DNA of 64,000 bases, from positions 2,666,001 through 2,730,000 of the forward strand of contig NZ_PYHR01000002.1 of NCBI RefSeq assembly GCF_003121705.1. Reading direction: 5' to 3'. Made by a program: the position numbers and the translations under genes. Origin of the DNA: Serinibacter arcticus (GTDB lineage: Bacteria > Actinomycetota > Actinomycetes > Actinomycetales > Beutenbergiaceae). This document shows positions 16,340-42,810 of this stretch, in pieces. Position 1 is the stretch's first letter. Each line of letters begins with the position of its first letter. The notes below the pieces were generated by a model. The model saw only the letters and a list, made by a program, of their open reading frames with translations. It was not told the DNA's origin and did not search any database.

Positions 16340-16447
16340 GCGAGGGGTTTCTGCACCGCCAGCGAGGGGGTTGCGCACCACCCGCGAGGGGTTTCCGCAT
16401 CGGCGGGTGTGCCGAAACCCCTCGCGGGTGGTGCGCAAACCCCTCGC
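16340..16447. repeat. 22-bp repeat array A (three direct plus two inverted units)
   Basis: Units of exactly 22 bp start at 16340, 16362 and 16384 with core GCGAGGGGTTTC or a close variant, and two inverted units occupy 16404-16425 and 16426-16447. The turn creates a perfect 23-bp inverted repeat, 16373-16395 with 16414-16436. It begins 18 bases after the monooxygenase stop. It shares period and core with arrays B and C. Function unknown; the RNA could fold into a long hairpin. Confidence 0.9.
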
Positions 16448-16461
16448 CGGGGGTCGCGCCC

Positions 16462-16467
16462 TACGAT
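16462..16467 (+). promoter_or_regulatory. -10 hexamer of a probable leaderless gene
   Basis: TACGAT ends 7 bases before ATG 16475, and no ribosome site is present. This spacing implies transcription begins at or next to the start codon. Confidence 0.55.
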
Positions 16468-16474
16468 CGGGGCG

Positions 16475-16807
16475 ATGACCACCCGATCGGCCCGAGACGC
16501 TCCGCCCGACCCCCGCACCGCCGGCCGGCTCGGCCGGATCGCGCTGGCTCTCGCCGTCGCGAGCGTCGTCCTCGTCCTGGTCCACCGCTGGATGATGGGC
16601 GACGGCAGCGACCTTCCCATCGGCGCGGTCGCTCAGCAGTTCCGCGGAGCCCGCCCACTCGTCCTGCTGGCCTTCTTCGCGACGTCGATCACCAGCCTCA
16701 CCCTCGCGGCCGTGAGCCTGTCCGAGGCCGGGCGCCCGCGGTTCGCCTCCGGCACCGCGCTCGTCCTGACGGTCGGCGCACTGATCGGCTTCGTCGTCGC
16801 GATCTGA
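16475..16807 (+). CDS. Small membrane protein, unknown function
   Basis: Hypothetical protein of 110 aa with three predicted membrane helices (ALALAVASVVLVLVHRWMM, RPLVLLAFFATSITSLTLAAVS, TALVLTVGALIGFVVAI) after a polar N-terminus. No family recognised. ATG 16475 follows a TACGAT box with no ribosome site, the leaderless pattern repeated in this window. It converges on the GH114 lipoprotein with 21 bases between stops. Confidence 0.7.
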   Translation: MTTRSARDAPPDPRTAGRLGRIALALAVASVVLVLVHRWMMGDGSDLPIGAVAQQFRGARPLVLLAFFATSITSLTLAAVSLSEAGRPRFASGTALVLTVGALIGFVVAI

Positions 16808-16828
16808 GCACCGTCGGGTGCGACCGTC

Positions 16829-17659
16829 TCAGGGGCACTGCTCGCGCTCGTGGTCGGGGGAGTCCGACCCGACGAGCAGCCGGTCGCGCAGCACGGTGAG
16901 CGGCGCGCGGTCGGGGTCGGCGCAGACGTCGTCGAACGTCAGCGCGTCGTCGAGGGTGTCGGAGTACTCGATCTGGAGCACGTGCTCGCCGTACACCTCG
17001 CGGTAGGCGCCGCACTCGTCGTAGACGGCGCACTCCTCCACGACGGCGAAGTCGAAGCCGGCCTCCTCGCGCGCCGCCTCCCCGACGTCGGCCGCGTTCT
17101 TCTGCCCGACGGCGAGACCAGCGTCGTGCGCCCGGCCCACGTACTCGCTGGCCAGGGCGAGCGCACCCTCGCGCGCCACGCCGTCGAACCGCAGGAAGGT
17201 GTCGAGGTTGTCGAGCTCGACGGCGTCGAACCCCTTTTCCGCGCACGTGTCGATCTGCGGTCCGACGACGGCGAGGATCGCCTCGCGCTGATCCGGCGTG
17301 GTCGGGTCGAGGACGGCCTCGTCGGGCCAGTCGGGGTCCATCACGAGCGCGCCGTCCTCGCGCAGCAGCGCATCGGGGTGCTCGTCCTCCCAGCTCGTCA
17401 GCGCGCCCGGCTGGGTCTGGAAGCCGTTGAGGTAGCAGACGTTGTACGCCCCCTCGAGGGGATCGGCGGTGACGTCGCGCCCGACCACGGCGAACTCGCC
17501 CGCCTCGCCGTACGGCTCGCCGAGCTGGTAGTCGAACGGACCGGAGGTGGGCGGGAGTGCGGGCGTGGCTCCGCCGTCGTCCACCGCGGGTGAGCAGGCG
17601 GCGAGGGCGAGCGTGCACGCCAGCGCGAGGGTCGCCGTCGCCGTCGGGGAGGTGCGCAT
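16829..17659 (-). CDS. GH114-like lipoprotein (endo-alpha-1,4-polygalactosaminidase family)
   Basis: Secreted TIM-barrel lipoprotein of 276 aa. Signal and lipobox LALAAC at residues 1-21, then the GH114 pattern: GPFDYQLGEP, VVGRDVTADPLEGAYNVCYLNGFQTQPG, CAEKGFDAVELDNLDTFLRF and GQKNAADVGEAAREEAGFDFAVVEECAVYDEC. The Asp and Glu of AVELDNLD and VVEEC are in the positions of the family's acidic active-site residues. The characterised member cleaves polygalactosamine; the natural substrate here is unknown. Single gene, divergent from the ATPase gene. Start at ATG 17659; no strong ribosome site is seen. Confidence 0.82.
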   Translation of the reverse strand: MRTSPTATATLALACTLALAACSPAVDDGGATPALPPTSGPFDYQLGEPYGEAGEFAVVGRDVTADPLEGAYNVCYLNGFQTQPGALTSWEDEHPDALLREDGALVMDPDWPDEAVLDPTTPDQREAILAVVGPQIDTCAEKGFDAVELDNLDTFLRFDGVAREGALALASEYVGRAHDAGLAVGQKNAADVGEAAREEAGFDFAVVEECAVYDECGAYREVYGEHVLQIEYSDTLDDALTFDDVCADPDRAPLTVLRDRLLVGSDSPDHEREQCP

Positions 17660-17823
17660 GCACGACGGTAGACCGCGTCGGCCTTCGGGGTGTGCGGCGG
17701 GGCTCTCCCCGGTAGCGTGGGAAGGGCCGGGCTCAGGCTCGGCACGAACGGCCGGAGCCGGTGCAGGGCGACCCCGGACGTCGCGCCCGCAGTCCCCAGC
17801 AGTGCCAACCCTGTGACGGCCTC

Positions 17824-20307
17824 ATGAACCCGCCTCCGCTGCCCACCGGTCTCGCCCGTCGGCGCGCCCTCGTCGACCAGATCCGCGACGCCCAGGGGCT
17901 CTGCATCGTGCGCGGGGGGATCGGTGTCGGCAAGACGTTCCTGGCCGGGATGGCTGCGGTCGAGGCCAGGGAGGCCGGCAGCCTGGTCGTGTGGGCCGAC
18001 GTCGCGACCCTCGCCGGCGACGGCGGGAGCGGCGCGGAGGTGTGGGCCGCGGTCGCTCGTCACCTCGAGCGGATGGAGACCCCCCTGAAGGCCGGGCCGA
18101 TCGTGGTTCCCGCGCCGGTCGAGAAGCCGGTGTCCGCCGCCGAGGCGACCGATGCGGTGAGGCGGGCGGTGCTCGCAGCGGGCGGTGGGGTCGTGCTCGT
18201 GCTGGACGACGTCGACCGGTGCGAGGATCCGGCGCTCGCCGAGTGGGTGGTCGGTCTCGTGCGGCGCCTCCCCGGAATTCTCGTCGTGGCGACGTCGCGC
18301 CAGGTGACCGCGCTCGAGTCGCGGCTGGTCCGGGCCCGGGTCGACGTGACGCGGATCGGCCCCGACCTCGCCCTGGACGCGGCCGACGTCGCCGAGCTCC
18401 TCGGTGACCGCGACACGTTCGACGACGAGACGGCCGCCCGACTTCTCGAGGCGACGGGTGGGCACGCCCTCACCCTCGGGATGCTGCTCGTCGTGCTCGC
18501 GGAGACACGCCGCGACCCGGGCGTCGCCACGGCCCAGGAGCTCGGGCGGGAGGCCGCCAGGTGCGCCGGCGAGATCCTCGACTCCACCGTCACGCCCGAG
18601 CAGCAGCGCGCGCTCGGACCGCTCGCCGTTCCCCTGCGTCTGACCCGCTACCTCGCCCGGGCGATCGCCGGCGACGCCGCGCTCGACCTCCTCGACCAGG
18701 CGCAGGCCAGCGGGCTCGGGGCGTGGAGCGCGCGGACCGCCGCGCTGGTCGACTCCGACGACGGAGGTGTGTTCGACATGCTCGGCGTCTTCCGCCGAGC
18801 GCTCCGGGACGGGCTCCGACGCGAGAACCCGGGCAGAGAGAGCGCGTTGCTCCCGGTGGTTGTGGACGCCAGCCTCGACGAGCGCGGGTTCGCCGTGGCC
18901 GCGCTGGCCGCGGTGGACTCGGGGGAGCCGAGACTCCTCGAGGAGGTCTGTCGTGCGGCGTGGATGGAGCTGCGCCACGCCGATCTGAGTCTTCTCGCCC
19001 GCGTGATGTCGCCCGTCCAGGCCTGGCCCGTGGAGCGCTACCCGACGGTCGCCCTCACCCTCGGACTGATGATCTACCAGGACCCCGCGCGACAGCGCCA
19101 GGCCGAGCACTTCTTCCAGCTCGCAGCATCGGGGCTGGGGCTGTTCGCGCCGAGCGACAGCGCCGAGCGGGCCTACCTCGGCACGGTCCGCAGCATGGCG
19201 CAGCGCTTCCTCGGGCTGCCCGAGGAGGCTGCCCTCAGCGCCACCGCGGCGCTCGGGTCGTTGCGCGAGGTGACGATCGACGACGGAGCCCGACTGCCGG
19301 GTCACGCGTTCCTCGTGCGCAACATCGCGAGCGCGCTGTTCGTGGCCGGCTACAGCGACACCGCCGGCATCCTGCTGCAGGAGGCCTACGACGAGGAGGA
19401 TCCCGACTCCGACTCGGCCCTCCTCACGGCCTGCCTGCTCGCGCTCGTGCTGGGGTGGGGCGGCGAGGCGGCGGCCGCCGAGCGGCTCACACGGTCGCAC
19501 CCGCCGATGGCGGAGGCCGTGGCCGCGCTCGGCTCCTACGGCGCGAACGCCCTGCTGCGGACGCGGGCGATCCTCGCGCTCGAGCGTCGCGACGGCGAGG
19601 CGCTCGCCGCCGCGCTCGAGGGGGTGCGGTCGCAACCGACGCTGCTCGACGAGTTCGCGCCCCTGGGGGTGATCACCGAGATGCTCGCCGAGCTGAGCCG
19701 GGGAAGGCTCGCCGCCTCTCTCGAGGTCCTCGCGTGGGCCCGCGCCCACGAGTCCTACGCCTCGACCGCCCCCGTGTGGCGGGCGCGGCAGGATGCGCTG
19801 GGACGTCTCGTCCGGACGGCCGCCGGGGACGGCGCGGACGTGCTCCGCGAGCTGCAGGCCGCCCGGCAGGGTCCGCCGGAGCCCGGTGACCGGTTCGTCC
19901 ACCTGCTCGACGCCGCGCTCCTGCTGGCGGCCGACGACGTCGAGGGCGCCCGGTCGACGATCGGCGAGACGCTCGGTGACGACGACGGGAAGCTCACGGT
20001 GGCGAGGCTCCTGGAGGCGGCGATCGCCGTGCGTGCCGGGGACCGGGAGAAGGCCGGACGCATGCTGGCGATCGTGCGCGAGCGGGCGCACGAGGGCTCC
20101 CTGCGAGGCTGGCTCCTGCTCACCCGTGCTGACCGCGAAGCTCTCGAGGCAGTGGACCCCGATGCGGTCGCCCACCTGGTGAGTCGGAACGTGCCGGTGG
20201 TGCTGCCGGTGGCTGAGGCGCCGGGCGGCGTGGGGTCGGGTGCTGTGGGTCCGGGTGCTGTGGGTCCGGGGGAAAACGACGGGACCGATGTCGGTGACGG
20301 TGGCTAG
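17824..20307 (+). CDS. STAND-like ATPase with helical repeats, no HTH seen
   Basis: Large P-loop protein of 827 aa from ATG 17824. Walker A GGIGVGKT at 31-38 and Walker B VVLVLDDVDR with Asp128-Asp129, then a region like the NB-ARC or MalT-type switch domain (ALTLGMLLVVLAETRRDP). Residues from about 330 on are a long Ala/Leu-rich alpha-helical array that resembles TPR repeats. In actinobacterial LuxR/LAL regulators this layout ends in a LuxR HTH; here it ends in a Gly/Pro-rich tail (GSGAVGPGAVGPG) with no HTH. It could be a signalling ATPase or a regulator that lost its DNA-binding domain. A GTG at 17761 would add 21 residues. A TAGCGT box at 17713 may be its -10. Confidence 0.75.
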   Translation: MNPPPLPTGLARRRALVDQIRDAQGLCIVRGGIGVGKTFLAGMAAVEAREAGSLVVWADVATLAGDGGSGAEVWAAVARHLERMETPLKAGPIVVPAPVEKPVSAAEATDAVRRAVLAAGGGVVLVLDDVDRCEDPALAEWVVGLVRRLPGILVVATSRQVTALESRLVRARVDVTRIGPDLALDAADVAELLGDRDTFDDETAARLLEATGGHALTLGMLLVVLAETRRDPGVATAQELGREAARCAGEILDSTVTPEQQRALGPLAVPLRLTRYLARAIAGDAALDLLDQAQASGLGAWSARTAALVDSDDGGVFDMLGVFRRALRDGLRRENPGRESALLPVVVDASLDERGFAVAALAAVDSGEPRLLEEVCRAAWMELRHADLSLLARVMSPVQAWPVERYPTVALTLGLMIYQDPARQRQAEHFFQLAASGLGLFAPSDSAERAYLGTVRSMAQRFLGLPEEAALSATAALGSLREVTIDDGARLPGHAFLVRNIASALFVAGYSDTAGILLQEAYDEEDPDSDSALLTACLLALVLGWGGEAAAAERLTRSHPPMAEAVAALGSYGANALLRTRAILALERRDGEALAAALEGVRSQPTLLDEFAPLGVITEMLAELSRGRLAASLEVLAWARAHESYASTAPVWRARQDALGRLVRTAAGDGADVLRELQAARQGPPEPGDRFVHLLDAALLLAADDVEGARSTIGETLGDDDGKLTVARLLEAAIAVRAGDREKAGRMLAIVRERAHEGSLRGWLLLTRADREALEAVDPDAVAHLVSRNVPVVLPVAEAPGGVGSGAVGPGAVGPGENDGTDVGDGG

Positions 20308-20310
20308 CGT
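20305..20310 (+). promoter_or_regulatory. -10 hexamer of a probable leaderless gene
   Basis: TAGCGT overlaps the stop codon of the ATPase gene and ends 7 bases before ATG 20318, with no ribosome site between. Confidence 0.55.
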
Positions 20311-20317
20311 TGGGGTC

Positions 20318-21691
20318 ATGACCGACCAGAACGCTGCTCAGCCGTCCGACCTGTCCGACCTGTCCGCGCTCGACGCCGGAACGGTGCCGCTCGACCCCGC
20401 CTCGACGGCGGCGCTCGCGGCGGTGGGGCTCACGTACCGGAAGGTCGACGTCGCCGGCGAGGACTTCGACCGCTTCGCGCTCGCGATGGACCGCGGCTTC
20501 CTCGGCCAGCGCGGGACGCCCGAGCAGCTCGAGGGCTTCCGCGGGGCGATGGACGGTCGTCGCCCGATCGGGGTCTTCGACGACGCGGCGGTCGAGTCCG
20601 GCGTGCCGGTCGCCACGGTCGACACCTGGGTCGAGGAGGTGACGGTCGACGTCGGCCGCGTCCTGCCGATGTGGGCGATCAGCGGGGTGACGGTCTCGCC
20701 GACGCACCGGCGGCGCGGGATCGCGCGCGCGATGCTCGAGGGCGAGCTGCGGTCGGCGGCGGCGGCCGGATTCCCGATCGCCGGGCTCACGGTCTCCGAG
20801 GCGACGATCTACGGGCGGTACGGCTTCGGCCAGGCCGCGACGGCGACGTCATGGTCCGTCGACGCGCGTCGCGCGGGGTGGATCGGACCGCGTCCGACCG
20901 AGGGTGAGCGGCCCGGCCGGATCGATCCGATCGAGCGGGAGCACGCGCGCGAGGACGTGACGGCGCTGCACGACGTCGTCCGCCGCGGGCGACCGGGTGA
21001 GATCCGGGCCTGGGCGAACCTGTGGCGCTTCACGGTCGGTCTCGGGGCCGGTCAGGAGGGCGCCGCGAAGGTGCGCGCCGTGCGGTACACGGACGCCGAC
21101 GGCGTGCGTCGTGGCGTGCTCGTGTACGAGATCGAGAACCACCCGGACGACTTCACCAAGAACACGCTGGCGGTGCGGTCGCTCATCGCGGACGGTCCGG
21201 AGGCCTACGCGGCGCTCTGGCGGTTCGCGCTGACCCACGACCTCGTGGCGACCGTGAAGGCCGAGCTGCTCTCGGCCGACGAGCCGTTGCGCTGGCTGAT
21301 CGCCGACACCCGGGCGGCGACCGTGACGGAGCGGGACCACCACTGGCTGCGGGTGCTCGACGTGGCTGCGTGCCTCGAGGCGCGCACCTACCGGGTGCCG
21401 GGAGCGGTCACGTTCGTCGTGTCCGACCCGGTGGGGCTGACCGACGGCGCGTGGACGCTGACGATCGACGAGGACGGTGCCGGCTCGGTGACGGCGGGGG
21501 AGGCCGGTGCGGGCGCCGGTGGGCACGAGGTGCACCTCGGGATCGCGGAGCTGTCGGCGCTGCTCGTCGGGGGTGTCCGCGCGACCACGCTGCGCGCGGC
21601 GGGCCGCGTGGAGTGCGACGGCGATGCGGCCTCCTGGCTGGACGTCGCCCTCGCGCCGCTCGCGCAGCCCCGCCTGAGCGTCTGGTACTGA
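20318..21691 (+). CDS. eis: Eis-like GNAT acetyltransferase with SCP2 domain
   Basis: Acetyl-CoA-dependent N-acetyltransferase of the Eis family, 457 aa. Mycobacterial Eis acetylates aminoglycosides and protein lysines and forms hexamers. The first GNAT domain has the acetyl-CoA loop VSPTHRRRGIARAML (about 127-141) and TVSEATIYGRYGFGQA; a second GNAT-like domain covers about 190-340, and the last 100 residues resemble a sterol-carrier fold ending in a free C-terminal SVWY, which in Eis supplies the catalytic carboxylate. ATG 20318 is chosen for the leaderless TAGCGT signal and because upstream sequence belongs to the previous gene. Array B of 22-bp repeats starts at the base after its stop. 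Confidence 0.88.
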   Translation: MTDQNAAQPSDLSDLSALDAGTVPLDPASTAALAAVGLTYRKVDVAGEDFDRFALAMDRGFLGQRGTPEQLEGFRGAMDGRRPIGVFDDAAVESGVPVATVDTWVEEVTVDVGRVLPMWAISGVTVSPTHRRRGIARAMLEGELRSAAAAGFPIAGLTVSEATIYGRYGFGQAATATSWSVDARRAGWIGPRPTEGERPGRIDPIEREHAREDVTALHDVVRRGRPGEIRAWANLWRFTVGLGAGQEGAAKVRAVRYTDADGVRRGVLVYEIENHPDDFTKNTLAVRSLIADGPEAYAALWRFALTHDLVATVKAELLSADEPLRWLIADTRAATVTERDHHWLRVLDVAACLEARTYRVPGAVTFVVSDPVGLTDGAWTLTIDEDGAGSVTAGEAGAGAGGHEVHLGIAELSALLVGGVRATTLRAAGRVECDGDAASWLDVALAPLAQPRLSVWY

Positions 21692-21779
21692 CGAGGGGGT
21701 AGTTCCCGCCCCTCGAGGGGGTGGTTCCTGTCCCTCGAGGGGGTGGTTCGTGCCCTTCGAGGGGGTGGGTGCGGTCGTA
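21692..21779 (+). repeat. 22-bp repeat array B (four direct units)
   Basis: Units start at 21692, 21714, 21736 and 21758, each 22 bp, with core CGAGGGGGTNGTTC; the fourth is degenerate. Unit junctions form CCCTCGAGGG-type palindromes. The array begins at the first base after the stop codon of the Eis-like gene and lies downstream of the convergent glutaredoxin-like gene. Same period as arrays A and C. Confidence 0.9.
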
Positions 21780-21834
21780 CTCGGGGGCTTCCTCAGCCCT
21801 GCGCGGAGGCGATTCTCCCCCGACCCGGGATGGC

Positions 21835-22110
21835 TCAGGCGAGCCCGAAGAGGTGGAGCTTGGCGGCGACCTCGAGGTTGGACGGCTCGACCTGGTGGGA
21901 CCCGTCCGGGTACACGACGACGGGGATGTTCGTGCGTCCCGAGATCCGGTGGGCCTCCTTGGCGGCCTCCGGCTCGACGACGAGGTCGACGTAGGTGAAG
22001 TCGACGCCGAGCGAGATGAGCTGCGCCTTGGTCCGACGGCAGTCGCCGCACCAGTCGGCGCCGTACACGGTGAGCGTCGGGGTGGTGGGCGTGGGGGTGT
22101 CGGTGGTCAT
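21835..22110 (-). CDS. Glutaredoxin/mycoredoxin-like thiol protein
   Basis: Small cytoplasmic redox protein of 91 aa from ATG 22110. After a Thr/Pro-rich N-terminus comes the glutaredoxin fold: LTVYGADWCGDCRRTKAQL holds the CxxC active site as Cys-Gly-Asp-Cys, then the cis-proline segment GRTNIPVVVYPDGSHQVEPS. Actinobacterial mycoredoxin Mrx1 and NrdH share this layout with other dipeptides in the CxxC. The role would be reduction of mixed disulfides; the partner is not visible. An open extension to 22149 lacks support. Confidence 0.85.
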   Translation of the reverse strand: MTTDTPTPTTPTLTVYGADWCGDCRRTKAQLISLGVDFTYVDLVVEPEAAKEAHRISGRTNIPVVVYPDGSHQVEPSNLEVAAKLHLFGLA

Positions 22111-22156
22111 GGACCCATTCTCCGCCGAGTCGACGGACGGCAGAAGCACGGCGCGT

Positions 22157-23128
22157 CTATGGCGCCTTGGTGGTCGTCAGGTTGACGGGGCGGTCGGTCA
22201 CGGCGACGTCGATCGTCTCGGTCAGGGTGTGATCGAAGGATCCGGCCTGGGTCGGGCCCTGCCAGTCGATCGTCCACGCGCTGGTGGCCTCGAGCGCGTA
22301 CGTGCCCGACGACGTCCAGGTGTGGCCGCACACGGGCGTGCCCTGGAGGGTCATCGACGCCGGCGGCGCGGCGACCTCATCGCGGGTGCAGGTGACGGTC
22401 GTGCCGTCACCGGTGGTGAAGTCGACGCTGGCGAACGTGGCGGCGAGCGTGATCGTCAGGCCGTCCTGCGTCACGGTGGTCGTGAGCGGGCCGATCGCCG
22501 GGGTTCCGCCCTCGGCCCAGAAGTAGGCCGGGGCTCCGATGAGGACATTCGGGTCGACGAGGTCGGGCGCCGGAGCCATGCCGATCGTGATGGGGTCGAG
22601 GTCGAGCTGCGCGACGGCTCGACGCGCGGCCCCGGGTTCGTCGACCGGAGCGGCTGCGGGGGCTGCTGGTGCCCAGTAGCGCGAGATCGTCGGGCAGTCG
22701 GGGATGGTCGCGCCTGTGGTGTTGACGCATGGGTAGGGCGTGCATGTGACGATGACGCCTGTCGTATTCCCGGCCCAGACCAGGGCATCAAGTGGGGGTT
22801 GCGGGTCTGCGACGGCTACGTAGCAGTTTCCGATCCACGACCCGGCGGCATTTGCGCACGGTACGACGATGGCGCCGTAGGCGCAGACCCGAGGACCCGA
22901 ATCCGCACCCTCCACTGGCGACAGGACCGGGTTGATCGGGTTGGCGCTAGAACCCCCTTGTCCGCCGCCAAGCGCCGAGCAATCGACGCCGACGACGTTG
23001 CCAAGAGCGTCGATGATGCTGCAGTCGCCGTTGCTCGGGTTCGAGGCAGCCTCGACGACGAAGGATGGTAACGCCCAGAGCGCAAGCGTGACGGCCACTA
23101 ATGCCGAGTTTGTGAGCCGTCTCAACAT
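22157..23128 (-). CDS. Secreted protein of a conserved actinobacterial type, PKD-like C-terminus
   Basis: Exported protein of 323 aa with signal peptide MLRRLTNSALVAVTLALWALPSFVVEA, a Cys-containing variable middle part, and a beta-rich C-terminal half with PAYFWAEGG, TFASVDFTTGDGTTVTCTRD and GTPVCGHTWTSSGTYALEATSAWTIDWQG. The GDG-TV-C ... CGHT pattern is seen in secreted proteins paired with lipoproteins in many actinobacteria; function unknown. ATG 23128 overlaps the stop of the lipoprotein gene by 7 bases, so the two are coupled. The first 400 bases are clearly lower in GC than the surroundings, which suggests recent acquisition or fast divergence. Confidence 0.75.
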   Translation of the reverse strand: MLRRLTNSALVAVTLALWALPSFVVEAASNPSNGDCSIIDALGNVVGVDCSALGGGQGGSSANPINPVLSPVEGADSGPRVCAYGAIVVPCANAAGSWIGNCYVAVADPQPPLDALVWAGNTTGVIVTCTPYPCVNTTGATIPDCPTISRYWAPAAPAAAPVDEPGAARRAVAQLDLDPITIGMAPAPDLVDPNVLIGAPAYFWAEGGTPAIGPLTTTVTQDGLTITLAATFASVDFTTGDGTTVTCTRDEVAAPPASMTLQGTPVCGHTWTSSGTYALEATSAWTIDWQGPTQAGSFDHTLTETIDVAVTDRPVNLTTTKAP

Positions 23129-23748
23129 GACTGCTCAACGAGCGCCTTGGCCTCGTTGATCGTCCAGTTTCCGGTCTGCTGATGCTGCATCAGCACTTCC
23201 CAGGTAAATCGGGAGGGAGTGGTCCTGGCGATCGGCATTCCCCCGCTATCGAGCGTGGACAGTTCGGAATAGTCGGCGCAGTACTGCAGTCGGATCTGTT
23301 CGTAGCCAGCGCCGCTGGGATCGGGGATGTACTCGATCAGAGACATGCTTGGGATCGCGGTCGATCCTTGAGTGCGCTTACTGTCGTCAGCGCTCGATTG
23401 GAATGCGGCACCCATGGCGTTCGAAATCTCGGGGGATCCCCAGTACATGTAGAGCTTGTCAGTCCAGGTCGCGAAGCCCTCGGCGCCGACCTCATCTGCA
23501 CGCCGGTGGTAGTCCCGCACCGTCTGCTCCGCCTCGGCGACGTGCTGCTCCTCCACCGTCGGCGGGGTCTCCGTCTCCGTCGGCGTGGGCGCCTCGGTCG
23601 TCTCGGTCTCGGTTTCGGTCGGCGTCGCCTCCGTTGTCGTCTCGGAGGTCTCCGGCTCGCCCGGCTCGTCCTGTGGCGAGCACCCCGCCAGCGCGAGGAT
23701 CACGGCGACCGACCCGCACGCCGTCGCCACCCACGTCCGTCCGCCCAC
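23122..23748 (-). CDS. Lipoprotein with Thr/Glu/Pro linker, unknown function
   Basis: Lipoprotein of 208 aa: signal ending in lipobox LALAGC (near residue 23), a 50-residue Thr/Glu/Pro linker that would span the wall, then a globular domain of about 130 aa (TVRDYHRRADEVGAEGFATWTDKLYMYW ... NWTINEAKALVEQSC). Linker plus domain resemble surface lipoproteins with NTF2-like folds, a weak guess. First gene of a two-gene unit with the secreted protein at 22157. The domain part is the lowest-GC stretch in the window by eye. Confidence 0.75.
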   Translation of the reverse strand: MGGRTWVATACGSVAVILALAGCSPQDEPGEPETSETTTEATPTETETETTEAPTPTETETPPTVEEQHVAEAEQTVRDYHRRADEVGAEGFATWTDKLYMYWGSPEISNAMGAAFQSSADDSKRTQGSTAIPSMSLIEYIPDPSGAGYEQIRLQYCADYSELSTLDSGGMPIARTTPSRFTWEVLMQHQQTGNWTINEAKALVEQSC

Positions 23749-26533: not shown

Positions 26534-26839
26534 ATGGCCGAAACGAAGCACGAGGAACCCGCGAGCACGTCCGCCAAGATTCTCTACCGTCCGTTCGGCA
26601 TCGTCTCCTCGATGGCGGGCGGCCTCATCGCGTCGGCCGTGTTCAAGCAGGTCTACAAGCGCGTGGTGAAGGGCGACAAGCCCAACGCCCCCGGGCCGCT
26701 CCAGTCCGAGTACAACCTGCGCCAGATCCTCGTCGCCGCTGCGATCCAGGGCGTCATCTACTCCGTCGTCAAGGCCGCGATCGACCGCGGCGGGGCGCGC
26801 ACGTTCCAGAAGTGGACGGGCGAGTGGCCCGGGAGCTGA
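26534..26839 (+). CDS. DUF4235 membrane protein
   Basis: Protein of 101 aa matching DUF4235, found almost only in actinobacteria. Pattern: KILYRPFGIVSSMAGGLIASAVFKQVYKRV then LRQILVAAAIQGVIYSVVKAAIDRGGARTFQKWTGEWPG, two membrane helices separated by a Pro-rich hydrophilic loop. Function unknown. Its stop codon lies in the first unit of a 20-bp tandem repeat. Confidence 0.88.
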   Translation: MAETKHEEPASTSAKILYRPFGIVSSMAGGLIASAVFKQVYKRVVKGDKPNAPGPLQSEYNLRQILVAAAIQGVIYSVVKAAIDRGGARTFQKWTGEWPGS

Positions 26840-26893
26840 CGCCCGCGGTCGCCGACTGACGCTCGCCGTCGCCGGCTGACGCCCGCCGTCGCC
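26836..26893. repeat. Three tandem 20-bp units over the DUF4235 stop codon
   Basis: Units start at 26836, 26856 and 26876 and each begins CTGACGCYCGC. Because 20 is not a multiple of 3, the repeated TGA falls in all three frames. Probably slippage duplication of the gene end. Confidence 0.75.
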
Positions 26894-26946
26894 CGCCGTC
26901 GCCCCGCCCGCGCCGTCCTCCCAGGAACACCAGGGATGATGGAGCG

Positions 26947-35640: not shown

Positions 35641-35661
35641 CACCCGACGAGGAGGTCGAGC

Positions 35662-36417
35662 ATGACCACCACCCCGCCCACCACCACACCGCCCACTGCC
35701 ATCCCGCCCACCCCCACCCGCCGCGCGCTCGTGGTCCGTGGCGGCTGGGACGGCCACCAGCCCGTCGCCACCACCGACGCGTTCCTCCCGTTCCTGCGCG
35801 AGAACGGGTTCGCCGTCGAGATCACGGACGACCCCGAGGTCTACGCGGACGAGCACCTGATGGCCGCGACCGACCTGGTGCTGCAGTCGGTGACGATGGG
35901 TCGGGCGAGCGGCGAGGCCGTGACCGGCCTGCGCACCGCCGTCGAGAACGGCACCGGGTTCGCCGGCTGGCACGGCGGCATCGCGGACTCCTTCCGCGAG
36001 AGCTCCGACTACGTGCAGCTCGTCGGCGGCCAGTTCGCCACCCACCCCGGTCGGTCGCCGAGCGAGCGGGTCGGCGACCCCTCCGACAACTACGTGCCCC
36101 ACACGATCGAGATCACCGACCTCGGCCGTGAGCACCCGATCACCGCGGGGCTGAGTGACTTCGCCCTCGACACCGAGCAGTACTGGGTGGTCCACGACGA
36201 CCTCATCGACGTCCTCGCCACGACCGAGCACCCGGTCCGGCCGTGGAGCCCGTGGCACCGACCGATCGTCTCGCCCGCGGTCTGGACGCGTCGGTGGGGC
36301 GCCGGCCGGATCGTCGTCGCCACCCCCGGCCACACCCCCGAGGTGCTGGCCGACCCGAACGTCCGCACCATCGTCGAGAGGGGTCTGCTGTGGGCCAGCC
36401 GCACAGCGTCGGAGTAG
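35662..36417 (+). CDS. thuA: ThuA-domain protein
   Basis: ThuA (trehalose-utilisation type) protein of 251 aa with a glutamine-amidotransferase-like fold. A Thr/Pro-rich N-terminus leads to RRALVVRGGWDGHQPVATTDAFLPFLRENGFAVEI, then TGFAGWHGGIADSFRESSDYVQLVGGQF and EHPITAGLSDFALDTEQYWV, all typical. ThuA-ThuB pairs convert disaccharides through 3-keto intermediates in rhizobia. GGAGG lies 6 bases before ATG 35662. The next gene, a Gfo/Idh dehydrogenase, overlaps by 28 bases, so the pair forms an operon under the 35621 palindrome. Confidence 0.9.
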   Translation: MTTTPPTTTPPTAIPPTPTRRALVVRGGWDGHQPVATTDAFLPFLRENGFAVEITDDPEVYADEHLMAATDLVLQSVTMGRASGEAVTGLRTAVENGTGFAGWHGGIADSFRESSDYVQLVGGQFATHPGRSPSERVGDPSDNYVPHTIEITDLGREHPITAGLSDFALDTEQYWVVHDDLIDVLATTEHPVRPWSPWHRPIVSPAVWTRRWGAGRIVVATPGHTPEVLADPNVRTIVERGLLWASRTASE

Positions 36418-37523
36418 TCGGTCTCGGCGTCATCCTCGACGCCTACCTCGCCACGCTCGCCGACCACCCCGGCGTGCGGATCGCCGCCGTGGCGGATCTC
36501 GACCCCGACCGCGCGCGGGCCGTGGCCGAGCGCACCGGCGCCCGCGCCGTCGCCGTCGCCGAGCTGATGGCGAGCGACGAGGTCGGCACCGTGCTCGACC
36601 TCACCACCCCCGGCGCGCACGCGGAGGTCGCGCTCGCCGCCGCGGCGCACGGGAAGAACCACTACGGCGAGAAGCCGCTGGCCGCCACCCTGGCGGACGC
36701 GCGCGAGGTCGTCGGGGCGACGACGGCGGCCGGCACCGTCCTCGGGTGCGCCCCCGACACGGTGCTCGGCACCGGGATCCAGACGGCGCGCGCCGCCGTC
36801 GAGGCGGGCCGGATCGGCCGCCCGACGGCCGCCGTCGCCACCTGGCTCTCGCCCGGCCACGAGGCCTGGCACCCGCAGCCCGACTTCTACTACGCCCGCG
36901 GCGGTGGCCCCGTGCTCGACATGGGGCCGTACTACCTGACGAGCCTCGTGCACCTGCTCGGTCCGGTCGTGGCCGTCAGCGGCGCCGCCTCGAGGCTCCG
37001 GGACACCCGCACGATCGCGACGGGTCCGCGGGCCGGGGCCGTCATCGACGTCGAGGTCCCCACGCACGTCGCCGGGACGCTCGTCCACGCGAACGGGGCG
37101 ATCTCGACGGTCACCGTGAGCTTCGACGCGGTCGGCACGCATGCGCGACCGATCGAGGTGCACGGCGAGGAGGGATCGCTCGCGATCCCCGACCCCAACC
37201 GTTTCGACGGCGACGTCGAGCTCCTCGCGCGGGGCACCCGCGACTGGGTCACACTGGAGCCGAGCGCCGGGTTCGTCGACGCCTCCCGCGGGATCGGGCT
37301 GCTGGAGATGGTGGAGGCGGCCGGGCTGGAGGCGGCGTCGTCGGCATCGTCGGCATCGTCGGACACCCCGCGCGCGAGCGGCGGCGTCGCGCTCCACGTC
37401 ATGGAGATCATGACGGCGCTGCTCGACTCCGCGGAGACCGGCCGGCGGATCGACCTCACCACCGCGCCCCTCGTCCCGCCGGTCGTCCCCCTCACGCCGG
37501 CCGAGCGGTGGCGCCGGGGCTGA
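36390..37523 (+). CDS. Gfo/Idh/MocA-family oxidoreductase
   Basis: NAD(P)-dependent sugar dehydrogenase of 377 aa. Rossmann start SVGVVGLGVILDAYLATLADHPGVRIAAVADLDPDRA with an acidic residue favouring NAD, then HGKNHYGEKPLAATLADAREVV, the conserved EKP lysine region. GTG 36390 has GAGAGG 9 bases upstream and lies within the thuA reading frame. Partner of ThuA by overlap, so oxidation of a sugar hydroxyl such as C3 is plausible. Its 3' end overlaps the convergent uxuB gene by 32 bases. Substrate not predictable. Confidence 0.9.
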   Translation: MGQPHSVGVVGLGVILDAYLATLADHPGVRIAAVADLDPDRARAVAERTGARAVAVAELMASDEVGTVLDLTTPGAHAEVALAAAAHGKNHYGEKPLAATLADAREVVGATTAAGTVLGCAPDTVLGTGIQTARAAVEAGRIGRPTAAVATWLSPGHEAWHPQPDFYYARGGGPVLDMGPYYLTSLVHLLGPVVAVSGAASRLRDTRTIATGPRAGAVIDVEVPTHVAGTLVHANGAISTVTVSFDAVGTHARPIEVHGEEGSLAIPDPNRFDGDVELLARGTRDWVTLEPSAGFVDASRGIGLLEMVEAAGLEAASSASSASSDTPRASGGVALHVMEIMTALLDSAETGRRIDLTTAPLVPPVVPLTPAERWRRG

Positions 37524-38964
37524 TCTCGCCGCAGTGCCGCGAGCCCTCAGCCGCCCCGACCAGCCGCCGCACGCCGTCGCGCACCCGGGCGCCCACGGGC
37601 GTCCCGGCGAACAGCGCCGGATCGAGCATCGCCAGCAGCGCCTCGACCGGTTCGGCGGCCGAACACGCCCGCGCGACGTCGTCCCCGGCCGCGTCCACGA
37701 GCGGGAGGCCGCGCCGGTGGGCCGCGACCCAGGCCGCGACGGCGAGCTCCGCGCCCGGCGCCGCGCGCCCGGCGTCGGCCTCCGCCCGCAGCACGGGCAG
37801 GATCCGCAGCCGGATCTTCGCGCTTCCGTCGGCCGAGATCTGGGCGAGCCGGTGCTCGACCCGGTGGTTGCGGAAGCGGGCCAGCAGCGCGCGGCTGTAG
37901 GCGGCGGCATCCAGGTCGGCCGGGAGGTGGCGCGCGGCCTCGCTCCACCAGCCCTCGACGGCGCGGCGGAGCGTCGGGTCCTCGATCGCCTGCGCCACCG
38001 TGACGTGGTCCGCGAGCAGCCCGGCGTACGCGAGCAGGCTGTGGGCGCCGTTGAGCAGCCAGAGCTTGCGCGACTCGAAGGGCTCGACGTCGTCGACGAC
38101 CAGCGCGCCCGCGGCCTCCCACGCCGGTCGGCCGGCCGGGAACTCGCCCTCTAACACCCAGTCCGAGAACGGCTCGGTGACGACGGGGACGGCGTCGGAC
38201 CGGCCGGTCGCCCGCCGCACCGTCTCCGCGAGGTCGGGTTCAGCGCGCGGGGTGATGCGATCGACGGAGGTGGAGATGACCGATGCGTGGTCGGCGAGCC
38301 AGGACGCGAGCGAGCCGTGGTGCCCGCCGGCGTCGACCTCCGCGGCCAGCGCGAGCAGCCCGCCCCGCAGCAGCGCGCCGTTGCCGGGCAGGTTGTCGCA
38401 CGGGACGAGGGCGATCGGGCCGGCGCCCGCCCGCCGTCGAGCCTCGAGCCCCGCGAGCAGGCGTCCGGGGGCGGTGGTCGCCCCGGTGAGGGCGGCGGGG
38501 TCGTCGACGGCGGACGCCTCCCGCAGCCGCGCGAGGTCCGCGAGGAGTGCCGGATCCGCGAGGTCCGGTCCGCCGTCGGGCGCGAGGCGGTAGCCCGCCT
38601 CGGTGATGGTGAGGGTCACGACGGCGGTGCGCGGGTCGGCGAGGTGGGCGTTGATCAGGTCGGTGCGGGGGCCGGGGTGCGCGGCGACGATGCTGTCGAC
38701 CACGGTGAACGCGTCGCCGTCCTCGCTGCGCTCGACCAGCGTGTAGAGCCCGTCCTGGCGCGCGAGCGCGGCCGGGACGTCGAGGTCGCCCGGCCGGGGG
38801 GCGCGACCGCCGAACGCGACGATGCCCCACTCGGCGGCGTCGTCGGCCCTGGCGGTGTACCAGGCCTGGTGCGCCCGGTGGAAGGCGCCCAGGCCGAGGT
38901 GGACCAGGCGCGGCGGGGCGGCGGGGGCGGTGTCGCGCCGCAGGGGGCGCGGATCGGCGGTCAC
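37492..38964 (-). CDS. uxuB: Fructuronate reductase / mannitol-dehydrogenase-family protein
   Basis: NAD-dependent polyol/uronate dehydrogenase of 490 aa. Rossmann loop HLGLGAFHRAHQAWYTARAD at the N-terminus, PCDNLPGNGALLRGGLLAL, and the catalytic-lysine block EPFESRKLWLLNGAHSLLAYAGLL, all diagnostic of the long-chain mannitol dehydrogenase family. The GTG start overlaps the TGA of uxaC (GTGA), and UxaC makes the fructuronate that this enzyme would reduce to mannonate. Mannonate then goes to UxuA, divergent from uxaC. The 3' end runs into the Gfo/Idh gene on the other strand. Confidence 0.92.
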   Translation of the reverse strand: MTADPRPLRRDTAPAAPPRLVHLGLGAFHRAHQAWYTARADDAAEWGIVAFGGRAPRPGDLDVPAALARQDGLYTLVERSEDGDAFTVVDSIVAAHPGPRTDLINAHLADPRTAVVTLTITEAGYRLAPDGGPDLADPALLADLARLREASAVDDPAALTGATTAPGRLLAGLEARRRAGAGPIALVPCDNLPGNGALLRGGLLALAAEVDAGGHHGSLASWLADHASVISTSVDRITPRAEPDLAETVRRATGRSDAVPVVTEPFSDWVLEGEFPAGRPAWEAAGALVVDDVEPFESRKLWLLNGAHSLLAYAGLLADHVTVAQAIEDPTLRRAVEGWWSEAARHLPADLDAAAYSRALLARFRNHRVEHRLAQISADGSAKIRLRILPVLRAEADAGRAAPGAELAVAAWVAAHRRGLPLVDAAGDDVARACSAAEPVEALLAMLDPALFAGTPVGARVRDGVRRLVGAAEGSRHCGEISPGATARPA

Positions 38965-40352
38965 AGCTTGAACGCCCGGCGCGGCACGGCGTCGACGAGG
39001 TCGCGGGCGACGCGCCCGGCCTGGTCGTGGGAGAGGCGCCCCTCGCCGACGAGGCGGGCGAGGTAGGCGGCGTCGGCGCGACGCGCGGTGTCGTGGCGGG
39101 CGGGGATCGACAGGAACGCGCGCGTGTCGTCGATGAAGCCGGTGCCGCGGTAGAAGCCGGCCGTCTCGGTGACGGCGGAGCGGAACCGCGCGATCGCGTC
39201 GGGAGCGTCGAGGAACCACCACGGGGCGCCGACGTAGACGCTCGGGTAGAACCCGGCCAGCGGGGCGAGCTCGCGCGAGAACGTGGTCTCGTCGACCGTG
39301 AACAGCGCGAGGTGCAGGCCCGGCTCCAGGCCGTGGCGCTCGAGCAGGGGGCGCAGGCCGTCGACGAACGACGTCGGCAGGGGGATGTCGTGCCCCGTGT
39401 CGGGCCCGAAGGTGCGCAGCGTGGCGGAGGAGTGGTTGCGGCGGACGCCGGCGTGGATCGTCATCACCAGGCCGTCCTCGACGCTCATGCCCGCCATCTG
39501 CAGCAGGAGGTGGCCGCGGAGCGCGCGGTTCTCGGCGGCGTCGGACTCTCCGCGCAGCGCGCGCTGCAGCAGGCGGTCGGCCTCCCCGGGCTCGAGGTCG
39601 ATCGTGAACGGCTCGACGACGCCGTGGTCCGCCGAGAAGGCGCCGTGGCCGACGAAGTGGGCGCGTCGCTCGCGCAGGGCGTCGAGGTAGCCGGCGAACG
39701 TGGCCGGGTGGCCGGTCGCCGCGAGGAGCGCCTCCGCGCGACCGACGAACGCCGCGCCGTCGGGATCCAGGTAGGCGTCCGGCCGGAACGTCGGCGCGAC
39801 GCGCAGTCCCTGGGCCTGCAGGAGGGCGTGATCGGCGAGATCGTCCAGCGGGTCGTCGGTGGTCGCGAGCACGTCGATCCGGAACCGCTCGAGCAGCGCG
39901 CGGGGCCGGAAGGCCGGGGTGCTGAGCGCCTCGGCGACGGCGTCGTAGATCTCGTCGGCGCTCGCGGCGTCGAGCGGGGTGTCGATGCCGAAGACGCCCG
40001 ACAGCTCCTCCTCGATCCAGTAGCCCGTGGCCGTCCCCGCGAAGAGGTGGAAGCGCCGCGCCACCTCGCGCCAGGTCTCGCGCGGATCGGCGACGGCGCC
40101 GGCCATGCCGATGAGGTGGGGGTCGGCGCCGTCGGCGTGCAGGAGGCGCGTGAGGTAGTGGTCGCCGACGACGAGCAGCTCCGTCGGGTTGCCGAACGGC
40201 TCGTCCGCCCGCAGCAGCGAGGCGGGGACGTGACCGTGCGGCGAGAGGATCGGCGCGTCCGCCACCGCCCGGTACAGCTCGCGCGCGATCGCGCGCAGCG
40301 TCGGGTCGAGGGGCAGGAGGCGATCGGGGTCGCGGCGGTGCGAGCGGGGCAT
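38961..40352 (-). CDS. uxaC: Glucuronate isomerase
   Basis: Converts D-glucuronate to D-fructuronate (and galacturonate to tagaturonate); 463 aa, usual length. Amidohydrolase-fold metal site begins with SPHGHV, His39 and His41; later HLIGMAGAVADPRETWREVARRFHLFAGTATGYWIEEEL and QMAGMSVEDGLVMTIHAGVRRNHSS are family blocks. ATG 40352. First gene of the uxaC-uxuB unit. A TTGACA-like -35 on the minus strand (40382-40387) overlaps the CAATCGTTTG operator, so repression by one of the nearby LacI proteins is likely. Confidence 0.95.
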   Translation of the reverse strand: MPRSHRRDPDRLLPLDPTLRAIARELYRAVADAPILSPHGHVPASLLRADEPFGNPTELLVVGDHYLTRLLHADGADPHLIGMAGAVADPRETWREVARRFHLFAGTATGYWIEEELSGVFGIDTPLDAASADEIYDAVAEALSTPAFRPRALLERFRIDVLATTDDPLDDLADHALLQAQGLRVAPTFRPDAYLDPDGAAFVGRAEALLAATGHPATFAGYLDALRERRAHFVGHGAFSADHGVVEPFTIDLEPGEADRLLQRALRGESDAAENRALRGHLLLQMAGMSVEDGLVMTIHAGVRRNHSSATLRTFGPDTGHDIPLPTSFVDGLRPLLERHGLEPGLHLALFTVDETTFSRELAPLAGFYPSVYVGAPWWFLDAPDAIARFRSAVTETAGFYRGTGFIDDTRAFLSIPARHDTARRADAAYLARLVGEGRLSHDQAGRVARDLVDAVPRRAFKL

Positions 40353-40384
40353 CGCACCAGCAGACCGGATAGCCCTGGGCTTGT

Positions 40385-40394
40385 CAATCGTTTG
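40385..40394. promoter_or_regulatory. CAATCGTTTG operator between uxaC and uxuA
   Basis: One mismatch from the palindrome CAAACGTTTG found upstream of the GH3 gene at 47527, with shared flank GCCA. It overlaps possible -35 elements for both divergent genes (TTGACA for uxaC, TTGCCA at 40392 for uxuA followed 18 bases later by TACCGT). Confidence 0.65.
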
Positions 40395-40504
40395 CCACCA
40401 GGCGGGCCGCCCCGCTACCGTCGTGGACGACCCCTCGGCCGGTCGCCGTCGAGTTCGATGGGGTTTTCCGCCGAGACGCTGCGACGACGCACGAGGAGAC
40501 GACT

Positions 40505-41689
40505 GTGGAGCACACCTGGCGCTGGTTCGGGCCGGAGGATCCGGTGACGTTGGCGGAGATCCGTCAGACGGGGGCGACGGGGATCGTGCATGCGATGCAC
40601 GAGATTCCCAACGACCGGCCCTGGCCGTTGGAGGCGGTCCTGGAACGCAAGGCCGTGATCGAGGAGGCCGGGCTGACGTGGTCGGTGGTGGAGTCGATCC
40701 CGGTCACGGAGTCGATCAAGCGCGGCGACGCGGGTAGGGACGAGGCTGTCGCGACGTGGATCGCGTCGTTGCGGTCGGTGGCCGCGGCCGGGATCGAGGT
40801 GGTCTGCTACAACTTCATGCCGGTCCTGGACTGGACCCGGACCGATCTTCGTCACCGCCTCCCCAGCGGGGCGTGGGCGTTGCGGTTCGACCAGGACGCG
40901 TTCGCGGCGTTCGAGCTGTTCATCCTGCAGCGGCCCGGGGCGGTGCGGGAGTATGACGACCTCGAGCAGGAGCAGGCGCGGCAGGTCTACGACGCGCTCG
41001 GTGATGCCGGGCGCGCCGAGCTGGTCGAGACGGTGATCGCGGGCCTGCCGGGGTCGGAGGAGCATCACACCCTGGAGACCCTGCGGGCGGCGATCGCGGC
41101 CTACGACACCGTGTCCGAGGCTGACCTGCGGGCCAACCTCGCGGCCTTCCTCCGGGCGGTGGTGCCGGTCGCGCAGGAGCTGGGGGTGCGGTTGGCGATC
41201 CATCCCGACGATCCGCCCCGACCGCTGCTGGGTCTGCCGCGGGTGGTCTCGACCGCCTCCGATGCGCGTGAGCTGCTGGCGGCGGCGCCGTCGGTCGCGA
41301 ACGGGTTGACGTTCTGCACGGGCTCCTACGGGGTGCGGGCCGAGAACGACCTGGTCGCGATGGCGGGGGAGTTCGCCGAGCGGATCTACTTCGCCCACCT
41401 GCGCTCGACCGTGCGCGAGGAGCCGGATGCGCGGTCCTTCCACGAGGGCAATCACATCGCGGGTGATGTCGACATGGTCGGGGTCATCACCGCGCTGGTG
41501 AAGGAGGAGCGTCGGCGGGCGGCCCTGCCGCAGGGTGGTCCCCGGATCCCGATGCGTCCCGACCACGGCCACCAGATGCTCGATGACCAGCACCGCACCA
41601 CCAACCCCGGCTACCCCCTCATCGGACGCCTGATCGGACTGGCCGAGCTCCGCGGGGTCGAGACCGCCGTCGCCGCACTGCTGCCCTGA
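40505..41689 (+). CDS. uxuA: Mannonate dehydratase
   Basis: Dehydrates D-mannonate to 2-keto-3-deoxygluconate; 394 aa, as in E. coli UxuA. Start WRWFGPEDPVTLAEIRQTGATGIV, then GIEVVCYNFMPVLDWTRTDL, metal-site region LAIHPDDPPRPLLGLPRVVS, and SFHEGNHIAGDVDMVGVI plus RPDHGHQMLDD, all UxuA signatures. GTG 40505 has GAGGAG 6 bases upstream. Completes glucuronate breakdown with uxaC and uxuB on the other strand. The last 79 bases overlap the antisense LacI frame, and array C begins 8 bases after the stop. Confidence 0.95.
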   Translation: MEHTWRWFGPEDPVTLAEIRQTGATGIVHAMHEIPNDRPWPLEAVLERKAVIEEAGLTWSVVESIPVTESIKRGDAGRDEAVATWIASLRSVAAAGIEVVCYNFMPVLDWTRTDLRHRLPSGAWALRFDQDAFAAFELFILQRPGAVREYDDLEQEQARQVYDALGDAGRAELVETVIAGLPGSEEHHTLETLRAAIAAYDTVSEADLRANLAAFLRAVVPVAQELGVRLAIHPDDPPRPLLGLPRVVSTASDARELLAAAPSVANGLTFCTGSYGVRAENDLVAMAGEFAERIYFAHLRSTVREEPDARSFHEGNHIAGDVDMVGVITALVKEERRRAALPQGGPRIPMRPDHGHQMLDDQHRTTNPGYPLIGRLIGLAELRGVETAVAALLP

Positions 41690-42810
41690 AGCGCCCCGCG
41701 ACCGGACCCAAATGGCCTCGCGACCGGCCCCCAAAGGGCCTCGCGACCGGACCTGAAGGGCCTCGCGAGTGGACCCGAAAGGCCTCGCGAAGGGTTAGGC
41801 GGAGGGGCCGGGCCCGTCGACGCGCGCAGCACCAGCTCGGCCGGCAGCGCCGGGGCGGCCTCCGGCTCCGTGCCCTCGATCTCGGCGAGCAGCAGCCGGA
41901 CGGCGGCGTCGCCGGCCTTCCCGAGCGGGCTGCGCACCGTCGTGAGCGCCGGGCTCGCCAATGCCGCCCCGAAGATGTCGTCGAACCCGACCACGCTCAG
42001 GTCGTCGGGCACGGCGACGCCCCGCTCGCGCAGCTGCGCGATCAGGCCGAGCGCCACGAGGTCGTTGTAGGCGACGACGGCCGTCGCGCCCGACGCGAGC
42101 ACCGCCGTCGCCGCCTCGCCGCCCCCCTCGAGGGTCGCCGCGTACGGACCGAGATCCACGACGTCCAGGCCGCGCGACGCTGCGGCCGCGCCGAGCAGCT
42201 CGCGTCGTCGGCGGCTCGCCCACGACGCCGGGGGCCCCGCGATCCAGCCGAGGCTGCGGTGGCCGTGCGCGTGCAGGTGGGCGACGACGTCGTCGATCGC
42301 CGTCGTGAGGTCAGGCACCAGCGTGGGCAGGCCCGCGACCTCCCGGTTCACCACGACCACCGGCGTGCGCTCGGCGAGGGCGAGCACCTCGGCGTCGTCG
42401 ACGCGCGGCCCCATCAGCAGCACGCCGTCCACGGCCTGCGCGAGCCGGTCGACCGAGGCGATCTCCAGCTCGGGGGAGTCGTGGGACTCGGCGAACAGCA
42501 GGGTGTACCCGGCCGCCGTCGTCACCGCCTCCGCGCCCCTGACGAACCCGGAGTACACCGGGTTCGTCAGGTCGGAGAGCATGACGGCGATCATCCGCGT
42601 GCGCCCGGTCTGCAGCGCCCGGGCCACCGGGTTGAGGCGGTAGCCGAGCTCCGCCGCGGACGCCTGGATCCGCGCCTCCGTGGCGGCCCCGAGCCGGCCC
42701 GGCTTGTTCAGGGCGCGCGAGACGGCGGACGTGCTCACCCCCGCGTGGCGCGCGACGTCGGCGAGGGTCACCCCTCGCGCCCGCCGGACCCCCGGTTCGC
42801 TCCGTACCAC
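41611..42810 (-). CDS. LacI-family regulator with repeat-encoded C-terminal tail
   Basis: Repressor of 399 aa. HTH at about 13-37 (GVTLADVARHAGVSTSAVSRALNK), effector domain to about 338 ending PAELVLRASTGPAPPP, where LacI proteins normally stop. The frame then continues through all of repeat array C, giving a Pro/Arg/Gly-rich tail with PLARPFRSGREAL and VARPFGSGRGAL, and 79 bases further antisense to the end of uxuA before a TAG at 41611. GTG 42810 has AAGGAG 5-10 bases upstream. Last of a minus-strand run after the alpha-glucuronidase gene. Likely controls the uronate genes through CAAWCGTTTG sites; inference. The tail may be real or result from a lost stop. Confidence 0.88.
   Translation of the reverse strand: MVRSEPGVRRARGVTLADVARHAGVSTSAVSRALNKPGRLGAATEARIQASAAELGYRLNPVARALQTGRTRMIAVMLSDLTNPVYSGFVRGAEAVTTAAGYTLLFAESHDSPELEIASVDRLAQAVDGVLLMGPRVDDAEVLALAERTPVVVVNREVAGLPTLVPDLTTAIDDVVAHLHAHGHRSLGWIAGPPASWASRRRRELLGAAAASRGLDVVDLGPYAATLEGGGEAATAVLASGATAVVAYNDLVALGLIAQLRERGVAVPDDLSVVGFDDIFGAALASPALTTVRSPLGKAGDAAVRLLLAEIEGTEPEAAPALPAELVLRASTGPAPPPNPSRGLSGPLARPFRSGREALWGPVARPFGSGRGALQGSSAATAVSTPRSSASPIRRPMRG
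41697..41785 (-). repeat. 22-bp repeat array C (four direct units)
   Basis: Units start at 41697, 41719, 41742 and 41764 (22, 23, 22 and 22 bp) and a partial fifth follows. On the minus strand the core is CGAGGCCTTTCGGGTCC-like, comparable to the CGAGGGGTTTC core of array A. It lies between the uxuA stop and the conserved end of the LacI protein, and is translated as part of that protein's frame. Confidence 0.9.

Follow-up and report, generated by a model that had tools for sequence, protein, structure and literature searches.

Tandem arrays of 21-22 bp units downstream of stop codons in Serinibacter arcticus and related genomes: possible border elements of transcription units

Intergenic DNA in bacteria is usually purged, and arrays that keep their place while their sequence differs therefore need explaining, whether by selection, by genome-wide copying, or by both. 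Arrays of this kind are described here from Serinibacter arcticus. They were met in a stretch of 64,000 nucleotides (contig NZ_PYHR01000002.1, positions 2,666,001 to 2,730,000 of the forward strand), which is called the window below, and they consist of short tandem units lying downstream of stop codons.

The nearest known kind of element is the BIME-type repeat of gene 3' ends, which the arrays resemble in place and number, not in unit structure or transposase. According to passages of two papers, the BIME-2/REP elements of enterobacteria form composite extragenic arrays, and BIME-2 binds gyrase (PMC2817692, PMC6379681). REPs linked to a RAYT transposase are described in a passage of the first paper as imperfect palindromes with a GT(A/G)G head (PMC2817692). 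A related class, the RIBs, is placed at the 3' ends of transcription units, going by the title of a reference in that paper (PMC2817692). The arrays described here are likewise interspersed, extragenic, and grouped, and they too lie at 3' ends. They differ in being head-to-tail with a fixed period of 21-22 bp, mostly starting no more than about 20 nt from a stop codon, and in having neither a palindromic unit with the GT(A/G)G head nor, in the genomes searched, the Y1/RAYT transposase.

DNA uptake sequences offer another comparison. These are species-specific variants of a core, often near terminators, present as single short sites in very high number. The arrays share the species dialects of a core but are tandem and not single sites. 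The TAACTGA direct repeats of the Beggiatoaceae are, in part of the paper describing them, abundant, intergenic, present in 2-6 copies per set, and suggested as binding sites (PMC4679880). As far as that part goes, both are short, abundant intergenic direct repeats, but the Beggiatoaceae repeats are heptamers mostly just upstream of start codons, whereas the units here are 21-22 bp long and downstream of stops. Among the matches listed from open PMC papers there was no published description of such arrays, and in the excerpted portion of the B. cavernae genome paper the only match to "repeat" is one CRISPR.

The window holds three arrays, one of each of three subfamilies. The consensus is GCGAGGGGnTT for subfamily A, GCGAGGCCnTT for B, and CCCCTCGAGGGGGT for C.

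Array 1: 16341..16446, no single strand; family A units (GCGAGGGGnTTnnGCACC), three forward and then two inverted.
Array 2: 21692..21779, plus strand; family C units (CGAGGGGGTnGTTCC..CCCCT), four forward.
Array 3: 41699..41787, minus strand; family B units (GCGAGGCCnTTnnGGTC), four units with one step of 23.

An earlier note on this DNA, made from the letters alone, had reported these arrays with a period of about 22 bp. A motif-free scan for periods 15-40 across the full window, requiring an identity of 0.77 or more across two periods, returned six segments, and the only ones with period 22 are arrays 1-3. The identical scan gave no segments in 20 locally shuffled windows. For array 1, the note was right about its presence and left out the inversion of the last two units.

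The arrays are abundant beyond the window. Across the window's own genome (G000), a pattern of three CGAGG cores 21-23 bp apart (gaps of 16-18 nt) gave 194 matches (87+107), compared with 1 (0+1) for the reversed pattern used as control; part of the 194, among roughly the first 100 matches listed, is coding. Pairs of family B units occur 114 times genome-wide, versus 0 for the reversed control, and pairs of family A and C units 111 times versus 0. The class that the note had proposed recurs through the genome.

To describe the arrays, stretches around listed arrays were taken from four genomes (G000, G001, G002, G023), with one more from G006. G000 contributed 45 stretches, 44 around listed arrays and one array-free stretch of 20 kb, reaching up to about 3.42 Mb. 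The set comprises 150 arrays of at least three units: 64 in G000, 16 in G001, 32 in G002, 37 in G023, and 1 in G006. Another 25 of 175 runs were excluded, with half or more of their length inside a predicted gene or with neighbouring units less than 0.55 alike. Array 3 of the window is outside the 150 because a LacI-like open reading frame (ORF) overlaps it, and two-unit inverted halves, such as that of array 1, fall under the three-unit floor.

The period is 22 bp in G000 (197 of 215 steps) and G023 (119 of 120) and 21 bp in G001 (44 of 44) and, mostly, in G002 (96 of 115); period 22 is also found in G003 and G006. The step of about two helical turns first described is supported. Copy number is not the constant four or five that had been claimed. 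It ranges from 3, the detection floor, to 8 and is once 13, and pairs are also seen.

The arrays are restricted to a few relatives in the sampled genomes. In a sample of 396 genomes of the order, 24 of which make up the family sample, a wider core gave 140 matches in G000 (control 1), 18 in G001 (1), 79 in G002 (0), 98 in G003 (0), 119 in G006 (12), and 71 in G023 (0). Arrays in number are thus present in 6 of 396 sampled genomes, spread over four genera, and none of the other genomes tabulated has more than 7 matches to the wider core. A narrower pattern containing TT found five genomes, with 2 matches in G006 and none in G003.

A scan of genome contigs for a wider spread of the class returned 87 stretches. 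Among the 80 listed, 7 are from Serinibacter arcticus, 1 is from Miniimonas arenae, and 72 are from other lineages. When 29 listed stretches, mostly chosen for a 22-bp period, were checked, 3 of the 28 outside Miniimonas (L088, L119, L141) had a sense gene end within 25 nt; this check is weak, since its crude longest-ORF caller picked an incorrect, antisense gene for the Miniimonas array, although a sense gene lies 7 nt away. Two Bacteroidales metagenome genomes (L093, L119, L135, L137, L138) have several intergenic 22-bp arrays (CGAGGCGCTTCCGAAATAAGCG) with no evident tie to stop codons.

Genes were called by a codon-usage script and not taken from annotation, and small false or missed genes affect the contexts. 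The 124 clusters occupy 63 convergent, 53 codirectional, and 8 divergent gaps, with 5 further clusters at locus edges outside that count. For 115 of the 150 arrays, the closest gene upstream is in sense orientation. From the stop codon of that gene to the first CGAG the median distance is 10 nt, and 85 of the 115 arrays start within 20 nt. Placement right after stops, which the note had reported from three cases, is thus supported and not random, so that neither of the two outcomes named in the note as refuting its view was seen.

Orientation is biased as well. Of 35 convergent single arrays with 60 nt of slack or more, 30 have their head closer to the stop than their tail (p=2e-5), and 22 heads are at most 20 nt from it, compared with 3.0 under uniform placement. 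In codirectional clusters the proximal half is sense in 37 of 53 (p=0.005); counting only those with a single direction, 28 are sense and 15 antisense (p=0.07). Inverted pairs also occur among the arrays, for example array 1 of the window.

A later check, made after the placement rule had been formed, used arrays that the wider core GCGAG(G/A) had picked up in G003 and G006. Ten of 16 start at most 20 nt past a sense stop (8 of 11 in G003, 2 of 5 in G006), one of the 16 (L295, G003) having been known before. At the remaining 6 an antisense gene or a distant sense gene was called. The G006 array of the main set also starts within 20 nt of a sense stop. In the G003 arrays (L332-L337, L295), CCTTCG precedes the first CGAG in 7 of 11 and the inner junctions are mostly ACCG, as if CCTTCG were a proper left end of the array.

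In some codirectional gaps the array ends shortly before a start codon and a box that we take to be promoter-like. At L031 and L046, a TAGGCT-like box stands close behind the array, 6-7 nt ahead of a GTG, and the gene looks leaderless.

Array position is kept at some gene ends while the units differ between species. An example is a methyltransferase gene with a match in 22 of 24 family genomes. Looking past its stop codon unguided by motif, an array is found in five of them. In G000 it begins 11 nt past the stop with CGAGGCC.. units of 22 bp, in G001 4 nt past the stop with CGAGG..CTT.. units of 21 bp, and in G023 7 nt past the stop with CGAGGTGGTT.. units of 22 bp. In G002 the units are CGAGAGACTT.. 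with a period of 21 bp, and in G006 a mixed CGAGG/CGAGA array lies 62 nt downstream. The other 17 genomes with a match, G003 included, have no array at this gene end.

Two other genes show the same relationship. At the end of a convergent gcvP gene, G000, G001, and G023 each have an array and G022 lacks one; a further five loci in this comparison, G002 and G006 among them, ended short of the gene. The end of an aminotransferase gene has an array in G000, G001, and G002 and none in G006, G023, or G003 (21 loci, one of which ran off its end). At this end, G014 and G019 have repeats of a different kind. In G023 (L207, 3039-3170) an array stops a few nucleotides before the start of the same aminotransferase gene.

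There are 16 reciprocal best hits between array-bearing genes: G000-G001 and G001-G002 have 4 each, and every other pair of genomes has 2. The four G000-G001 pairs compare with 0.17 expected (Poisson, assuming 3,360 genes).

Within a genome the units are homogenised across arrays. The note had held that each array is homogenised on its own. Instead, unit likeness in family A is 0.84 within an array and 0.81 between arrays (28 arrays), and in family B 0.86 and 0.79 (29 arrays), so that units are alike genome-wide and not array by array. Orthologous arrays of different genomes are 0.52-0.76 alike, compared with means of 0.81 and 0.83 among arrays inside G001 and G023. Arrays inside G000 and G002 are on average 0.66 and 0.62 alike, and there the contrast with orthologous arrays is weak or absent because subfamilies are mixed.

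Conserved positions with species-differing units suggest either a gene-border element of a kind not described before or a repeat that is tolerated nowhere else. We tentatively lean to the former, in which the arrays would be side-by-side DNA sites for a putative sequence-specific protein at the 3' borders of transcription units, insulating them. There would be one site per 21-22 bp, and this step would put the sites on one face of the helix. The CGAG end would mostly face the arriving RNA polymerase, and read-through and opposing transcription may be stopped or slowed at the border. Alternatively, the border might be where the bound protein tethers a nucleoid or topology factor. Unit changes would pass through each genome by recombination between arrays.

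The arrays keep a step of two helical turns in six genomes whose units differ, they are tandem, and both orientations are tolerated, all of which points to a protein on DNA rather than to an RNA structure. The sense bias and the border position point to an effect on transcription at unit ends. Of the functions first offered for the arrays, DNA sites for a putative protein fit best. It is possible, if rather doubtful, that they form a new class of border element, polar tandem arrays read by a putative Beutenbergiaceae DNA-binding protein, with positions kept and units rewritten per species. That this class is a case of bacterial concerted evolution of regulatory satellites is just as doubtful. 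If the arrays do insulate transcription units, they would add a further way of ending genes to hairpins and Rho. With them, concerted evolution could also be tested in the non-coding DNA of bacteria, since array position and sequence are separately traceable in four genera.

Several observations weigh against insulation by a bound protein. No binding protein for the arrays was found, and the units do not show one conserved site. The letters CGAG(G/A) are the only ones common to all genomes, and they were themselves required for detection. TT was also forced in the patterns that picked loci (partly in the A/C pattern) and in the grouping of family A, while G13 was never forced. In ungrouped units, TT at positions 9-10 and G13 are frequent in G000 (0.91 and 0.87 of units), G001 (0.98 and 0.98), and G023 (0.92 and 0.98), weaker in G002 (0.60, 0.67) and G006 (0.47, 0.32), and rare in G003 (0.11, 0.11); subfamily C has no TT at 9-10. 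The shared core first described therefore survives as CGAG(G/A) everywhere, its TT-containing extension being weaker or rare in some genomes, and a recognised core beyond CGAG(G/A) is uncertain. In 35 of 150 arrays the nearest upstream gene is antisense, and among the 53 codirectional clusters 16 lie antisense, which makes orientation a tendency rather than a rule. Positions are also lost or gained: none of 13 other family loci has a CGAG array in the place of the window's array 2 (14 of 19 matching genomes examined), and 8 of 12 G001 arrays have no G000 partner among the stretches compared. Only about 2 per cent of the genes, put at some 3,400, are followed by an array, a lower bound derived from 64 arrays. 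Arrays have also been added to gaps that still hold a strong hairpin. Finally, gyrase or IHF binding is a trait of REP/BIME elements, and no 10-11 bp A+T phasing appears in the arrays (no 10.5-11 bp harmonic in any set, smallest p 0.12), so gyrase wrapping is not supported.

The main rival is a selfish or neutral interspersed satellite, spreading by recombination or some transposition route and surviving only beside stops because insertions elsewhere damage genes, promoters, or hairpins. This account is doubtful too, and only slightly less probable than the border element. It fits the genome-wide homogeneity with species-specific units, the lack of site letters past CGAG(G/A) held in all genomes, the turnover of positions seen at array 2, the rarity of arrays in divergent gaps, and tight convergent gaps that are filled up to both stop codons. 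It does not predict the head-first bias, nor positions common to different genera with different units. The REP transposase family, one route for such spread, is absent from 8 of 8 genomes searched, other routes being outside that search. Compared with a border element, a satellite is better on turnover, spread, and the loose core, and worse on head bias and common positions.

The arrays might instead act in RNA, as units of the 3' untranslated region bound by an RNA-binding protein or the ribosome and protecting the mRNA or aiding termination. The sense bias and the start a few nucleotides past the stop agree with this, and the unit contains GAGG, which we take to resemble the partner of the 16S rRNA 3' end. 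Pairing around the GCGA junction, compared with re-dealt partners, shows no excess in G001 or G023, however, and is mixed in G002, where the pair count was reached by 23 of 500 shuffles and the stem length by 497 of 500. G000 does show an excess (reached by 0 and 1 of 500 shuffles), which mixing of subfamilies can produce. An RNA hairpin at this junction is thus inconsistent between genomes. Inverted arrays are common, and the antisense codirectional clusters weaken the RNA-stability role proposed in the note; a function in RNA is unlikely. Transcription terminators, intrinsic or of the Rho type, are more improbable still, despite the position at gene ends and the lower number of hairpins outside the arrays than in control convergent gaps. 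An intrinsic terminator would need a G+C-rich stem with a U tract, and the units have no consistent stem, only subfamily C holding a palindrome (CCCCTCGAGGGG). Inverted arrays would form long stems with no U tract. Five consecutive T, in the final unit or up to 25 nt past it, are seen in 1 of 149 arrays, and the window has no terminator-like site in 15800-22500 or 40500-43500. A Rho utilisation site is C-rich, G-poor RNA, unlike the arrays, where G is in excess of C in sense-strand units, pooled, of 4 of 4 genomes, and also in families A and B apart.

Replacement of intrinsic terminators by arrays was considered separately. A hairpin outside the array below -20 kcal/mol is found in 14 of 38 array-bearing convergent gaps and 19 of 34 controls (p=0.16), and one below -15 kcal/mol in 14 of 38 and 20 of 34 (p=0.10). 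In gaps with room, the hairpin is kept in 14 of 18 compared with 20 of 20 controls (-15 kcal/mol, p=0.04); controls with room have one in 19 or 20 of 20, depending on threshold. Replacement was rejected, the deficit being significant at one threshold only (other p 0.10 to 0.26). Most roomy gaps retain their hairpin, which together with the absence of a consistent stem and of terminator-like sites leaves the terminator role offered in the note with little support.

Other candidates were also rejected. KOPS-like replication-polarity motifs have a strand bias by chromosome arm, and no two-arc strand contrast was found (G000, 64 arrays, p=1.0; G023, 37 arrays, p=0.34). Spread driven by RAYT was rejected on the absence of the Y1 transposase (Y1_Tnp, PF01797) from all 8 genomes searched, the same search being positive in 5 of 14 control genomes. 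An Rfam scan of the window gave 0 matches above the gathering score. In the A+T phasing test, family B has a 5.5-bp harmonic (p=0.014).

The genes next to the window arrays are as follows.

Luciferase-like monooxygenase gene (PF00296): 15231..16322, plus strand; stop codon 18 nt before array 1.
GNAT/SCP2-like protein gene (PF13527, PF13530): 20318..21691, plus strand; stop codon abuts array 2.
LacI-like ORF (PF13377, PF00532, PF00356): 41611..42771, minus strand; reads through array 3 with no stop.
Convergent gene: 40505..41689, plus strand; stop codon 9 nt from the far end of array 3.

Array 2 follows without a gap on the TGA closing its gene at 21691. Because no stop interrupts the LacI-like ORF ahead of array 3, the array reads as a C-terminal protein extension in the window genome. 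The remaining segments of the period scan are two coding ones at period 15 and one of period 20 (26829-26909). This last repeat sits at a gene end and its units contain TGA, so that the stop codon belongs to the repeat.

For most arrays of a second G002 family (CGAGGGCGTCGCCGTCGTGAG, L192-L197), the closest gene upstream is 100-500 nt away, and units of this family often have no TT at 9-10. In sister genera (L251 in G011, L256 in G010, L288 in G014, L285 in G019), other direct or inverted repeats stand right after stops, for instance CCGAGTTCGCACCTGGGCG and GGTGCGATCTCAGCG. Over about 92 kb surveyed per genome, tandem repeats occur in 3 of the 49 gaps of G010, 2 of 43 in G014, and 1 of 43 in G022. 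Gene-end repeats with other units are possibly a wider phenomenon.

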